This document shows, piece by piece, positions 36,497 to 41,065 of a DNA stretch of 64,000 nt; within the stretch, counting starts at the first letter, position 1; each line of letters begins with the position of its first letter. The stretch lies in contig NZ_CP026692.1 in assembly GCF_002949795.1 (NCBI RefSeq), positions 6,835,001 through 6,899,000 on the forward strand. The letters run 5' to 3'. A program made the translations under genes and the position numbers. Source of the stretch: Nostoc sp. 'Lobaria pulmonaria (5183) cyanobiont'. Its GTDB lineage: Bacteria; Cyanobacteriota; Cyanobacteriia; Cyanobacteriales; Nostocaceae. The notes under the pieces were generated by a model that saw only the letters and a list, made by a program, of their open reading frames with translations, was not told where the DNA came from and searched no databases.

Positions 36497-37051
36497 ATGG
36501 ATAGCGAACAGCATCGACGCTATCAGACCTCTATGGTATCAACTTATTACCCTGAAACAACTTTCCTTGACTCTGTTGTCATGTCAGACGGAACTGAGCA
36601 ATCGCAAGGCTCGGATATCCTTACACGTTTGCACAGTGGAAAAGTTTTCATTGTCAATAGTCGTAGGCGAAATGGATTAATACTCTTTAAACGCTACCAT
36701 GCAGAGTTTGCTGGGCCTGGGGCTGCTGTGGGTGGGGATTACGATTGTGATTGCCAAAGGGCACTGCCTATAGGTAATCTTTCTTTATTAACTCCTGAAT
36801 CTAATGAAGAACGCCAGAAGGCTTACTTGATTAGGCGACAGTGGATTCGATTGATCAAACAAATTACAGAAAACCCACTGCCTGGGCAGCGAGTCCAGAA
36901 AATTCTCGATCAATTTGAACAATACTTTCCACCAGAAATAGTGGCTCTTTTGCCGGATGTTGCTTTTGCTCTTTTAGTGGGTGTGCTGCCACAAACAGTG
37001 GGAGTAGTACGCCGTTTGGGCAGTGAGGTGAATAGCAGGTTTAATTACTGA
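36497..37051 (+). CDS. Conserved cyanobacterial protein, function unknown
   Basis: About 184 residues from ATG 36497 (GTG 36458 would add 13). No signal peptide. Blocks include ILTRLHSGKVFIVNSRRRNGLILFKRYHAEFAGPGAA and LIRRQWIRLIKQITENPLPGQRVQKILDQFEQYFPPEIVALLP. The second block looks like a helical pair, and the composition suggests a soluble regulator. I could not assign a family. The unusually long upstream region is notable. It is convergent with hisC. Confidence 0.65.
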   Translation: MDSEQHRRYQTSMVSTYYPETTFLDSVVMSDGTEQSQGSDILTRLHSGKVFIVNSRRRNGLILFKRYHAEFAGPGAAVGGDYDCDCQRALPIGNLSLLTPESNEERQKAYLIRRQWIRLIKQITENPLPGQRVQKILDQFEQYFPPEIVALLPDVAFALLVGVLPQTVGVVRRLGSEVNSRFNY

Positions 37052-37059
37052 GTAAATTG

Positions 37060-38208
37060 CTAAGATGACAAATTGGCCAAAGCAGCTTTTACTCGATTAA
37101 CGGTGTGGGCGTTTTCTTCTATAGTTCCGACAGTAATTCGCAATCCTCCGCTGATGCATCGCACAAGAGTGCCCAGTGTTCTAAGTTTCTGGTGGAAAGT
37201 TTTTAAAGCAACTTCTTGTGAATAAAAGCCATTTGGTTTGAGACGCAGGTAAACAAAGTTGGCAGCACTTGGAGTAATTTGTAATTCTGGTTGCTGGGAT
37301 AAAATTTCGATTAGTTTGGTTCGTTCACTCAGGGTTTGGGGAATTGATTCCAGCAAAAGTGTACGATTTTGTAAACCAACTAATGCAGCTGCGATGGAAA
37401 AACTGGGGAGATTGTAGGGTAAGCGAACTTTTTCTAAGATGGCGATCGCTTCGGGATGAGCGACACAATAACCGATACGGAGAGATGCCAATCGGAAAGC
37501 TTTAGAAAAAGTGCGTAAAATTACCCAATTAGGACGCTGTGCTAATTCACCTACTAAGGTAGTTTGACTGAATTCAAAGTAAGCTTCATCAATTACTACC
37601 AAAATATGCTGTGGCAAACTTCTTAACCATGCCAACTCTGCCTCAGTTAAACTGTTGGCAGTTGGCGAATTAGGATGTACTACGAAAACTACGCGAATCG
37701 GTGAATTTTGAGTTTGTTCGATCGCAGACTGTGCGGCGCTTATGTCAATTTCAAAATTTCTTTCATTTCTCCCCACCGCCACTACAGGAATGCCCAATGT
37801 TTGCGCCAAAATCCCGTACATTGAGAAAGTAGGATTGGCAACGAGAATTGATCCTTCTCCTCCTAGACAGGTGGCGATTAATAAAGAGCGGATAATTTCA
37901 TCTGAACCATTACCAACAGAAATATTGGCAGCAGTAAATAAGGATGATGAGAGGGCGGCTGATTGATTGACATACTCAGCGATCGCATCCTTAAGTGTTT
38001 CATGTCCGCCATCGGGATAACGATTTGTTTCAATTACTTGCTGATACGTCCATGCCAGCTTCTCTTTTAACTCAGGTGGTAAATCGTAGGGGCTTTCATT
38101 TGTATCTAACCGATCGAACTGTGTAGTGACAGAATCGGCTGTATCGCTGCTAGGATGAGGTTTATAGGCGGTGAATTGGGCTAAATCTGACCGGATGAAG
38201 GGAAGCAT
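37060..38208 (-). CDS. hisC: Histidinol-phosphate aminotransferase
   Basis: About 382 residues of fold-type I PLP aminotransferase. [17 protein letters not shown]-type block [22 protein letters not shown] and the PLP lysine in [16 protein letters not shown] are intact. It converts imidazole-acetol phosphate to histidinol phosphate. Start ATG 38208 (MLPFIRSDL) is preferred because the ATG at 38220 is made by the neighbouring TCATTAG repeat. Confidence 0.92.
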
Positions 38209-38215
38209 AGTTTTA

Positions 38216-38264
38216 GTCATTAGTCATTGGTCATTAGTCATTAGTCATTGGTCATTAGTCATTA
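38216..38264. repeat. GTCATTA/GTCATTG heptamer array (7 copies)
   Basis: Seven consecutive heptamers GTCATTA or GTCATTG abut hisC. The first copy supplies a false ATG to the hisC frame. Confidence 0.9.
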
Positions 38265-38407
38265 GTAACTAACAAAGGACAAATGACTAAGGACATTAGT
38301 TATGTGTGAGTCTAATATTTTACAACTTCAAGGTAATTGGCAAAACAGACGAATTGCTTGCCAAATTTCTTCATCACCACACCATCGCCATTTTCTGAAG
38401 ATGTCCC

Positions 38408-38623
38408 TCAGTTCACTTTTCTTAATTGCCATTTCGTGTAGCCTTCACGCATACCTCCCCTGATCAACTTTGCCAGACGTTCTTAAGCCCGTCTGACACT
38501 TTGCCTTGAAGTTTTTACATCGTGCAAAGAACCAATAACATACCACGCACAAGGACTTTGCTCATGTAGTGGCTGAGGATATATCGTATACCAGGAATTT
38601 ACAAATTGTCCTATCTGCGATAC
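38408..38623 (-). pseudogene. Degenerate ORF beside the RHH gene, unidentified
   Basis: A minus-strand frame without a start reads QFVNSWYTIYPQPLHEQSP, CAWYVIGSLHDVKTSRQSV, a TAA, then ERLAKLIRGGMREGYTKWQL to TGA at 38408. The composition is protein-like on both sides of the stop, so it looks like a decayed gene. It begins about 8 bp after the RHH gene on the same strand. No family is recognised. It lies in the putative CAST relic and may be former cargo. Confidence 0.4.
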
Positions 38624-38630
38624 CTAGATA

Positions 38631-38855
38631 TTATTGCGGCGGATTTTGCTTCTTTTCCCGCTCCTCAACTGCCTTACTCACAAGCCGCACAACAAGATTA
38701 CTGATGGGACGGTCTTCTTCCTCAGCCCATCTTACCAAAGCCTCGTGGATATCTTTGGGGAAATATATGGAAGTACGGTTACTATAGCCGTTAGGTGGTG
38801 GGTTGAAAGATGGAGAAACCCTATCGCCCTGCGGTGTGCCACCCGAAGTTTCCAC
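38631..38855 (-). CDS. Ribbon-helix-helix (CopG/Arc-like) protein, 5' end altered
   Basis: 74 residues. Residues 27-66 (NRTSIYFPKDIHEALVRWAEEEDRPISNLVVRLVSKAV) form a typical RHH DNA-binding unit: a beta strand and two helices. Family members start close to this point. Here the frame continues upstream into FNPPPNGYS and METSGGTPQG, which are translations of the CRISPR-like repeats and spacer, and the only start is a GTG inside repeat 2. The native start was probably replaced when the array came to lie here. Arc-like regulators accompany some V-K transposons, so it could be an element gene. Confidence 0.6.
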   Translation of the reverse strand: METSGGTPQGDRVSPSFNPPPNGYSNRTSIYFPKDIHEALVRWAEEEDRPISNLVVRLVSKAVEEREKKQNPPQ

Positions 38856-38883
38856 AGCCCTCCCGTTAGGTGGTGGGTTGAAG
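38788..38883 (+). CRISPR. Remnant type V-K-like CRISPR array (two repeats, one spacer)
   Basis: Repeat 2 (38848-38883, 36 nt) runs GTTTCCACAGCCCTCCCG then TTAGGTGGTGGGTTGAAG. It agrees along its whole length with the Cas12k repeat type I recall (GTTTCAAC...CATCCCGGCTAGG then GGTGGGTTGAAAG). Repeat 1 keeps the 3' 22 nt (38788-38809: CCGTTAGGTGGTGGGTTGAA then AG). The interval 38810-38847 is a 38-nt spacer. Repeats point right, toward the tRNA. There is no Cas gene in the window. The assignment rests on remembered repeats, so a database check is needed. Confidence 0.7.
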
Positions 38884-38925
38884 TTCTTATAATTGAAGAC
38901 GCCAATTTGGCTATATAATTCTTTA

Positions 38926-38959
38926 TTAGGGTGGTTTGAAAGGAGCGCTGCGATCGCAC
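38926..38959 (+). ncRNA. Candidate delocalized homing crRNA against tRNA-Ala
   Basis: An atypical short repeat, TTAGGGTGGTTTGAAAG (38926-38942), is followed by GAGCGCTGCGATCGCAC (38943-38959). The latter matches 16 of 17 bases of the sense strand of tRNA-Ala(CGC) at 39350-39366, where the bases just 5' are GTA, fitting the GTN PAM of Cas12k. The match ends exactly at base 17, as in the short homing guides described for V-K CASTs. Eight of the bases are the common HIP1 octamer, which weakens the match alone but not its geometry. Confidence 0.7.
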
Positions 38960-39156
38960 GTAAAACGCAGCTATTTTATAGTAATGGAGCCTCTGCTTGG
39001 GTGAAAACAGCAAAAGAAGAGGTTATATATTTTTGTAATTAGACTGCAAATAAAGTGCTTTAAAGCTATTCTTCTAATTCAAGAGCCTTGGGCTTGCTGT
39101 AATAAATTAAATTAGAAAACATATATTTATTTAGCTGAGTTTTACAGGCGGATTTT

Positions 39157-39312
39157 GGACAATAATTCTTTAAAACTGGTTTCAACTCTGGACAATAATT
39201 CTTTAAAACTGGTTTAATTGCTGAAAGCCGCGAAAATACGTAACTTATGCCCCTGAAGTTGGAAAAAATGGACATTAATTCTTTAAAATTGACAATAATT
39301 ATTTAATGGACA
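39157..39312 (-). mobile_element. Tn7-like/CAST transposon end with four TnsB-type sites
   Basis: Reading inward from 39312 on the minus strand: terminal TGTCC, then four copies of a TTTAAAGAATTATTGTCC-type motif (plus-strand positions 39291-39306, 39270-39287, 39190-39207 and 39157-39174; the outermost two are degenerate). Arrays of such sites next to a TGT terminus are how TnsB-dependent transposon ends look. The terminus lies 2 bp from the tRNA-Ala 3' end and 54 bp from the GTA PAM used by the guide. The opposite end was not found. Confidence 0.65.
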
Positions 39313-39314
39313 TA

Positions 39315-39387
39315 TGGAGAATAACGGATTCGAACCGATGGCCTCTGCGGTGCGATCGCAGCACTCTACCAACTGAGCTAATTCCCC
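39315..39387 (-). tRNA. tRNA-Ala (CGC), putative CAST attachment site
   Basis: A 73-nt cloverleaf on the minus strand: acceptor GGGGAAT/ATTCTCC with G3:U70, anticodon stem CTGCG/CGCAG, loop ATCGCAC giving anticodon CGC, A73. A HIP1 octamer spans the anticodon stem and loop. It appears intact despite the adjacent transposon end. Confidence 0.93.
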
Positions 39388-39452
39388 TTAATCGGTGCTA
39401 AATTAAGAGTACTATTACTCATTAATTTAAGACATTATCACCATAGATTATT

Positions 39453-40181
39453 CTAACATTCAGTTACCGATGGTTGAGGCTGTTTTTGGGAATAAACCTT
39501 CTGCACACGTTCGAGTTCCAAATCATTGAGATAATCAACAGTCCAGTTACAGCAACGCTGGAGCATGTGGAATGGGTAAGTATTCGCTACACCAACTACT
39601 TGCATCTGCGATCGCTTCGCCGCTTCGATCCCTGCTGGAGTATCTTCAATTGCCAGACATTCCTGTGGTTGAAGATTCAATTCGGGATATTCCTTATTCA
39701 GGTGTTTCACTGCCAGTAGATAACCATCGGGTTCTGGTTTGCTGGTGGTGATGTCATCACCCGCGACAATAATTTTAAAATGTTCGGCTAGTTTAGCTCG
39801 ATGGAGTACCAGTTCTATTTCTTTGCGAAAAGCGCCACTAACTAATCCTAGTTTCAGATTCCGCGATCGCACCTGAAATATTAAGTCTTCTACACCTGGA
39901 TATAAAGGCAGTCTCTCTATTTTCTCTAGTTCGACCACATACGCTTGGGCTTTCCGGTACAGCAACTGAGTTAAATAGTTTTCATTGCCTACTCTACCAC
40001 GATTAGCGAGTAGTTGCTGAAAACAAGCGCGATCACTGCGTCCTAAAGAAGCTTGACGCTCATCGACGCGTTGGGGTTGGAGATTTTCTTCCATGAGAAT
40101 CTCATCGATCAGTTGCAGGTGGATTGGCTCATCGTTAATGATTACACCATTAAAATCAAAGAGAACTGCCTTTAAACTCAT
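39453..40181 (-). CDS. HAD-superfamily hydrolase (phosphatase/phosphomutase-like)
   Basis: 242 residues with a HAD core and helical cap. Motif I reads LFDFNGVIIND: the nucleophile Asp is present, but the second Asp (general acid/base) is Asn. Motif II is LVSGAF, the Lys is in TTSKPEPDGYL and motif IV is CLAIEDTPAGIEAA. It resembles beta-phosphoglucomutase/phosphoglycolate phosphatase-type enzymes, though the Asn would alter catalysis. It overlaps the upstream methyltransferase gene by 4 bp (ATGA), so the two are translationally coupled. Confidence 0.82.
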   Translation of the reverse strand: MSLKAVLFDFNGVIINDEPIHLQLIDEILMEENLQPQRVDERQASLGRSDRACFQQLLANRGRVGNENYLTQLLYRKAQAYVVELEKIERLPLYPGVEDLIFQVRSRNLKLGLVSGAFRKEIELVLHRAKLAEHFKIIVAGDDITTSKPEPDGYLLAVKHLNKEYPELNLQPQECLAIEDTPAGIEAAKRSQMQVVGVANTYPFHMLQRCCNWTVDYLNDLELERVQKVYSQKQPQPSVTEC

Positions 40182-41065
40182 GCCATTATGCCAAATGCTG
40201 GAGAACCAAGTCCCTCCAAATCATTATTATCTACTGATGTGTGAGTATACCGACGGATATTTTCGGTTGCTATTGGTTTAATGCCGCTAGTTACCTGATT
40301 TATCCACCATACATCTTGCGATCGCACTGCTTCAAATCCGGCTGCACCCATATTCGCTTCTATACTACTAGCAGCATATTCACGAATATATGGCTCTTCA
40401 AAAACATCATTGAGCCATTCTAACTGACGCAGAGTCTTCTGATTCCCATCTAGAATTAACACTTGTCCTCCAGTTCCCAGCAACCGGAAGCTTTCCCGCA
40501 GAATTGCCAAAGACACTGCATCTGGTGTTTCGTGGAATAGCAAAGAAGCTGTTACTAAGTCAAATGTTGCATCCCTCAAACCAGTTTTTTCAGCATTTCC
40601 ATGTCGCCATACTATATCTAAACCAGCATTTCTAGCTTTATCTTCTGCCCTTACCAGCATATAGGGCGATAAGTCCAAACCAATAACTTCCGCTTCGGGG
40701 AAAGCCTGTTTTAACATTAAAGTAGTGGAACCTGTGCCGCAGCCTAAATCGAGTATGCGTCGTGGTTTTACCTTGACGGCATCAACTAAAGCTTGACGAA
40801 CAATACTTTCATTCGGTGGCAAAACATAGTGGGTAATCGGATCGTAAGTAACTGCTGCATCGTAAGTCAGATATCCGCCAGCAATCCCGTGAAAGTTTTG
40901 ATTACTGTAGTACCACGGAATTATGACATCATCTCGTCGATAGCGATCGCTCTCTTTCTCCCAATCAATACTATCAGCGTAACGCCGTAACCCGTCTTCA
41001 TCAATCAAAAGACGCACTACAGGGGATAAAAAACGTTCCCAGATTGTATCTTGACGCACTGCCAT
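40178..41065 (-). CDS. Class I SAM-dependent methyltransferase
   Basis: 295 residues. SAM-binding motif I RILDLGCGTGSTTLML (about 105-120), the acidic post-I residue in EVIGLDLSPYML and motif DLVTASLLFHETPD define a class I methyltransferase (Methyltransf_11/25 type). The N-terminal 80 residues (WERFLSPVVRLLIDEDGLRRYADSIDWEK) are specific to a cyanobacterial subgroup. The substrate is unknown. It is coupled to the HAD gene. Confidence 0.85.
   Translation of the reverse strand: MAVRQDTIWERFLSPVVRLLIDEDGLRRYADSIDWEKESDRYRRDDVIIPWYYSNQNFHGIAGGYLTYDAAVTYDPITHYVLPPNESIVRQALVDAVKVKPRRILDLGCGTGSTTLMLKQAFPEAEVIGLDLSPYMLVRAEDKARNAGLDIVWRHGNAEKTGLRDATFDLVTASLLFHETPDAVSLAILRESFRLLGTGGQVLILDGNQKTLRQLEWLNDVFEEPYIREYAASSIEANMGAAGFEAVRSQDVWWINQVTSGIKPIATENIRRYTHTSVDNNDLEGLGSPAFGIMA

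Follow-up and report, generated by a model that had tools for sequence, protein, structure and literature searches.

Features beside tRNA-Ala(CGC)

The 64-kb stretch of DNA that was analysed, referred to as the window, carries a transposon left end together with a short CRISPR guide next to a tRNA-Ala(CGC) gene. An earlier note on this DNA had placed the feature at 38923-39369; it was found to extend further, out to about 38410. The parts are listed below in window coordinates, with genomes denoted G (G000 for this one), contigs C and loci L.

38373-38409, no strand: junction filler between a truncated gene beside a hisC-like ORF and the element; source not found
38410-38633, minus: element-internal sequence that takes in the beginning of the first cargo gene (only its very start) and the stretch leading from there to the regulator
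38631-38774, minus: 3' part of a ribbon-helix-helix (RHH) regulator gene, comprising the stop and the 47 codons before it, without the native start
38778-38809, plus: degenerate CRISPR repeat fused to the regulator gene (identified by eye from comparison with the repeats of G037 and the window)
38848-38883, plus: CRISPR repeat, 36 of 37 positions, 86-94% identical to the array repeats of G037, G020 and G028
38926-38942, plus: R*, TTAGGGTGGTTTGAAAG, a shortened CRISPR repeat ahead of the anchor spacer, near-identical and in the same position in relatives
38943-38959, plus: anchor (homing) spacer, GAGCGCTGCGATCGCAC, 17 nt, 16/17 to the tRNA
38942-39004: second half of the spacer plus downstream sequence, with a host-locus copy (L002:1501-1560; L035) that starts around the HIP1 octamer
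39158-39312, no strand: Tn7-like transposon left end, ending in TTTAATGGACA (motif scan; abuts the tRNA in relatives)
Starts at 39158, 39191, 39271 and 39291: four left-end repeats (motif scan)
39310-39312: terminal TGT/ACA of the left end
39315-39387, minus: tRNA-Ala(CGC), the target gene (ARAGORN and Rfam)
39366-39350, minus: anchor protospacer, GAGTGCTGCGATCGCAC, in the tRNA sense strand
39369-39367, minus: PAM GTA (GTN type)

The spacer differs from the tRNA sense strand by a single mismatch at position 4, in the seed-side half, and identity ends at base 17 with the next base being different. From the GTA PAM to the left-end terminus at 39312 the distance is 54 nt, and the terminus in turn lies 2 bp from the 3' end of the tRNA gene. 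The 16/17 match, the PAM, the stop after base 17 and the 54-bp distance had all been described in the earlier note, and these facts and their coordinates were confirmed. The same is true of its placing of that distance within the range of Cas12k systems, which for type V-K CASTs spans 46-82 nt between PAM and left end in the excerpts of PMC9938897 that were available. Both decayed repeats point toward the left end and are of the 37-nt type, with the one at 38778-38809 being 5 bases shorter in its middle than the repeats of G037 and the window. At gathering scores Rfam recognised tRNAs and 16S rRNA only.

The regulator remnant scored 44.7 bits against Pfam RHH_5 (cut-off 26), and its frame stays open into the CRISPR repeats, where an in-frame GTG is found by eye at 38855-38853. 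As in V-K CASTs, a small DNA-binding regulator is encoded on the strand opposite the repeats; RHH_5 is the domain of the Arc_2 regulators described next to V-K cas12k in the portion of PMC9938897 at hand.

The tRNA-Ala(CGC) site in related genomes

The tRNA-Ala(CGC) gene and its neighbour gene are present in 52 of 53 genomes of the genus (own included), and a search of these 53 with 38600-39310 gave matches in 38 at E <= 0.001. From 52 genomes, one of them contributing two loci, the element side of the tRNA was taken for 53 loci in all, the window among them, and scanned with one script; the stretch fetched per locus spanned 0.25 to 19 kb, with some contigs ending there. A guide was called where an R*-like ending was followed by a 17-mer having at most 5 mismatches to a GTN-preceded site in the tRNA. 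R* and spacer were in this way found together with the tRNA at 16 of the 53 loci, window counted, with 0 mismatches in five (G037, G028, G014, G008 and G048), 1 mismatch in ten (window, G020, G031, G019, G005, G009, G034, G035, G038 and G052) and 2 mismatches in G024. The end type of the window is shared by 12 of the 16, counting G019, in which the final bases are lost; the remaining four (G009, G034, G035 and G038) have a different end. Irrespective of a guide, the end motif of the window abuts the tRNA in 24 of the 53 loci, and G048 has a variant of it that differs by one base. A wider genome collection, scanned for the exact pattern, returned 11 records, from Nostoc (seven), Dendronalium, Cylindrospermum, Hassallia and one Nostocales MAG, several of which are the same genomes as in the set of 53; ten carry tRNA-Ala(CGC) with GTA, and the eleventh stops 89 bases past the spacer.

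This recurrence bears on whether the guide match could be a chance pairing of a HIP1 octamer with unrelated repeat-like sequence next to it. Eight of the matched bases are HIP1, which occurs 50 times in the window, and the earlier note had on that account warned that the match was weaker than it looked. When 17-mers from both strands of the 64-kb window, with the tRNA masked, were compared with the four GTN-preceded 17-mers of the tRNA, nothing but the spacer lay within 1 mismatch, and the best HIP1 site besides spacer and tRNA had 3. The match is thus unique in the window, and random 17-nt matches beside many HIP1 sites, which the note had raised, were not found. The decisive point is that R* and spacer recur with the tRNA in relatives, with PAM and end conserved alongside; because of this the match is more than chance, and a coincidence through HIP1, ruled out by the conservation of the whole unit, is hardly credible. 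The warning was accordingly fair for the match by itself and is overcome by that conservation. Nor, in the loci inspected, is the stretch ordinary chromosome kept by relatives, a possibility that had likewise been raised: those of them without this end have other sequence flanking the tRNA.

Full-length Cas12k adjoins the spacer in 4 of the 12 loci with the end type of the window (G037, G020, G028 and G014), is broken in G031 and present as fragments in G019, and was not found in the stretch fetched for the other six, window included. With the NCBIfam model V_Cas12k (cut-off 150) the Cas12k of G037 reached 791 bits, and it also matches Cas12k chains of solved structure. G037 also carries 37-nt repeats, a degenerate final repeat, R* and spacer, and no long frame was seen among its listed ORFs at the expected position of tnsB. 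The element in G020 looks complete, with cargo, Cas12k, array, R*-spacer, both ends and CATGG outside each end; its frames of 632, 306 and 170 aa are, from position and recall, presumably tnsB, tnsC and tniQ.

Several further arrangements were observed in the set. A second left end begins 9 bp past the right end of the first element in G028 (L103:14530-14595), in tandem, and in G020 the right end is directly adjoined by an end of a different type (L100:4100-4170), likewise a tandem at tRNA-Ala. In G052, L176 (G052:C1:4877750-4878269) is a miniature guide-carrying CAST derivative, a gene-free element of 520 bp beside tRNA-Ala(CGC) that retains both ends, two CRISPR repeats, R* and a 17-nt spacer; no 5-bp duplication was found in its flanks. 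At G004, one of the 24 loci with the end motif of the window, a guide-less element of 123 bp sits at the CAST insertion point beside tRNA-Ala (L145:13899-14021; G004:C7:23898-24020), complete with both ends and with AATGG as a perfect 5-bp duplication. Nine near-full-length copies of it occur in 7 of the 53 genomes, and among the seven copies whose flanks were inspected by eye only that of G004 has a duplication or a nearby tRNA. The 123-bp element looks like a MITE mobilised in trans by a V-K CAST; a literature search found no publication on miniature inverted-repeat Tn7-like elements in cyanobacteria.

Some results fit less smoothly. At position 4 the spacer has C or T, as does the tRNA at the corresponding base, and the two agree within the same genome in 6 of the 12 loci (G037, G028, G014, G008, G024 and G048) and differ in the other 6 (window, G020, G031, G019, G005 and G052). 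The differences point either to tolerance of the mismatch or to drift of one partner, spacer or tRNA. Pairing of R* with the tracrRNA regions of G037, G020 and G028 was no better than that of shuffled R*, as 54, 58 and 63 of 200 shuffles, respectively, did as well or better. Part of the spacer is moreover not unique to CASTs, because a 50-bp sequence that starts inside it is also found, both in this genome and in G034, at a host locus that has no left end. In G002, G015, the second left end of G028 and G040, element similarity begins at or a few bases from the HIP1 octamer of the spacer with other sequence before it, a pattern suggestive of recombination at HIP1.

Junctions of the window copy and its missing machinery

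The window copy consists of two blocks orthologous to elements that carry Cas12k. The first, 38410-38774, corresponds to the stretch lying between the regulator and the first cargo gene in G037 (L098:6180-5817; 96.7% identity) and G020 (L101; 95.1%); that cargo gene we take to be hsdM-like in G037. The second, 38848-39310, matches the array end and left end of G037, G020 and G028 at 89-92% identity. In these three genomes the blocks are separated by 3.1-3.6 kb with cas12k in between. The window has them joined to each other, at about 38775-38777, and the cas12k-to-array region of the relatives is missing.

At the outer junction, similarity to relatives on the hisC side ends at 38372 and element similarity starts at 38410. 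The adjoining sequence, 37900-38372, lies next to an ORF that is presumably hisC and is located elsewhere in relatives; a rearrangement therefore appears to have cut the element at its first cargo gene. G034 (L069) continues past the hisC-side breakpoint of the window, and a further part of that continuation lies in this genome at C1:6673275-6674225, on the opposite strand and about 200 kb off; the approximately 550 bp that separate the breakpoint from that part in G034 (L069) were not found in this genome. By the hisC-like ORF a dispersed repeat is also seen (38213-38295), with units like TCATTAGTCATTGG and many copies here and in relatives.

Searches for the machinery gave no Cas12k in the window copy or, apart from a fragment elsewhere, in the genome at E <= 1e-10. 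TnsB had no match in this genome at E <= 1e-5, at which 6 of 6 other genomes were matched. The right end of the window element was not found, and the whole elements of relatives gave no TnsC or TniQ match in 37001-40300 or in four other 20-kb stretches. Because Cas12k is absent from both the copy and the genome, the copy is a relic and not a complete CAST. The fragment mentioned, at L135:9876-10314 (G000:C1:429875-430313), is a Cas12k-like C-terminal piece, a 73-aa stretch with two stops, about 150 bp from tRNA-Lys(CTT), and is likely a second V-K relic of this genome.

A living element having its other half elsewhere in the genome was considered and, for the stretches inspected, rejected. The stretch beyond the hisC-side breakpoint (G000:C1:6664000-6703999) and that at the rplL-like cluster (G000:C1:515000-534999), a cluster which follows the right end in G037 and G028, held no CAST sequence besides short dispersed matches. 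An isolated 29-bp end-like match was found at G000:C1:4740927-4740956; the 19 kb around it contain no tRNA, and no CAST gene was recognised by eye among the ORFs listed there. A plasmid search matched 34 records, and among the 20 listed similarity covers the tRNA only.

Retention of the left end and the guide could mean that the copy is non-autonomous and still movable in trans by the proteins of another CAST, and the gene-free 520-bp derivative at the same tRNA in G052 gives this idea some footing. That derivative has both ends; the window copy lacks a right end, and neither TnsB nor Cas12k was detected in its genome at the cut-offs applied, which makes such mobility very improbable.

Somewhat less remote, and still unlikely, is a retained use, by which the left end and the RHH core, fused with codons from the CRISPR repeats, would serve as a resident repressor or immunity site against CASTs targeting this tRNA, with the window remnant being one of many solo left ends kept at Nostoc tRNA-Ala. 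The left end carried by the window copy is indeed seen at 25 of 53 loci, full-length Cas12k being found in the stretch fetched only in G037, G020, G028 and G014. The regulator core is also unchanged at the protein level, all 47 residues being shared with G037, G020 and G028. This identity is accompanied by only 2-3 changes in synonymous codons, however, and may reflect no more than recent decay, and the native start of the regulator is lost. G033 has a regulator within 50 bp of the tRNA and no cas12k in its stretch, but of the codon changes in that regulator relative to the window, 8 are nonsynonymous and 6 synonymous. Protection of the site is further put in doubt by the tandem elements of G028 and G020, because of which an occupied site does not exclude a new insertion.

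Interpretation and comparison with type V-K elements

The window stretch is read as the decayed left portion of a type V-K CAST inserted beside tRNA-Ala(CGC), with a probability of roughly 0.95. The copy is dead, and is a fossil of a known kind and not a new system. Integrase-mediated attachment at the tRNA was set aside, the end, array and orthologues being of Tn7-like and V-K type. The reading as V-K CAST homing put forward in the earlier note was right in kind, given that such units lie beside Cas12k in relatives; what it described is a relic and not a working system.

In the V-K model, as given in the parts of PMC9938897 and PMC11406308 consulted, a crRNA from R*-spacer acts with Cas12k at a GTN PAM and TniQ, TnsC and TnsB insert at a set distance. 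By that published mechanism, the element when living would have produced a crRNA of R* and the 17-nt anchor spacer that, with Cas12k and tracrRNA, bound the tRNA gene at the GTA PAM. TniQ, TnsC and TnsB would then have inserted the element about 54 nt downstream with the left end nearest the tRNA. Two later events probably put an end to the copy. An internal deletion would have taken out cas12k and the tracrRNA region and left the RHH regulator gene in fusion with the repeats, and a rearrangement with its break in the first cargo gene would have connected the element to the hisC-like locus, with loss of the transposase genes and right end. Past activity, the two events and their order are what we infer from the junctions and the relatives. 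As far as searched, the window copy is unable to run the V-K steps from its own genome.

Use of tRNA-Ala(CGC) as a site by CASTs is documented here. The literature search found no publication joining Cas12k, cyanobacteria and tRNA-Ala, and did not reach the works said to be primary on V-K homing, reportedly Saito 2021 and Hsieh and Peters 2021 (bioRxiv preprint). What remains of a guide-homing transposon once its machinery has been lost can be seen in this relic: a left end, and a guide from which the target can still be read. In Nostoc the site forms a natural archive of guide-directed insertions and their decay, from complete elements and tandems through deletion derivatives as small as 520 bp to solo ends. 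The site also allows one to ask how exact a homing guide has to be, with half of the 12 spacers of the lineage mismatching their own tRNA at position 4.

A second V-K lineage at this tRNA-Ala (G034, G038, G009 and G035) has R* and a 17-nt spacer directed at the same protospacer as in the window, with 1 mismatch. Its Cas12k, found nearby in G034 and G038 and partially in G009, is about 41-45% identical to that of G037, and its end sequence is other than that of the window. The closest complete relative examined is the G020 element, which has the same end, repeat, R*, regulator and tRNA site as the window. It differs in having T instead of C at position 4 of the spacer, and in being complete with a 5-bp target duplication, CATGG, whereas the window copy is without Cas12k, TnsB and right end.

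The layout described for type V-K, in the excerpts of PMC9938897 available, is a left end downstream of a tRNA, with R*, a 17-nt anchor spacer and a GTN PAM. Unlike a type V-K CAST as described in those excerpts, the window copy is without cas12k, tracrRNA region, tnsB and right end, and has its regulator fused to the array. It shares with such elements, so far as the consulted parts of PMC9938897 and PMC11406308 describe them, the tRNA, the left end, R*, the 17-nt spacer and the GTN PAM, and in addition the 54-nt distance, the 37-nt repeat type and the RHH_5 regulator.
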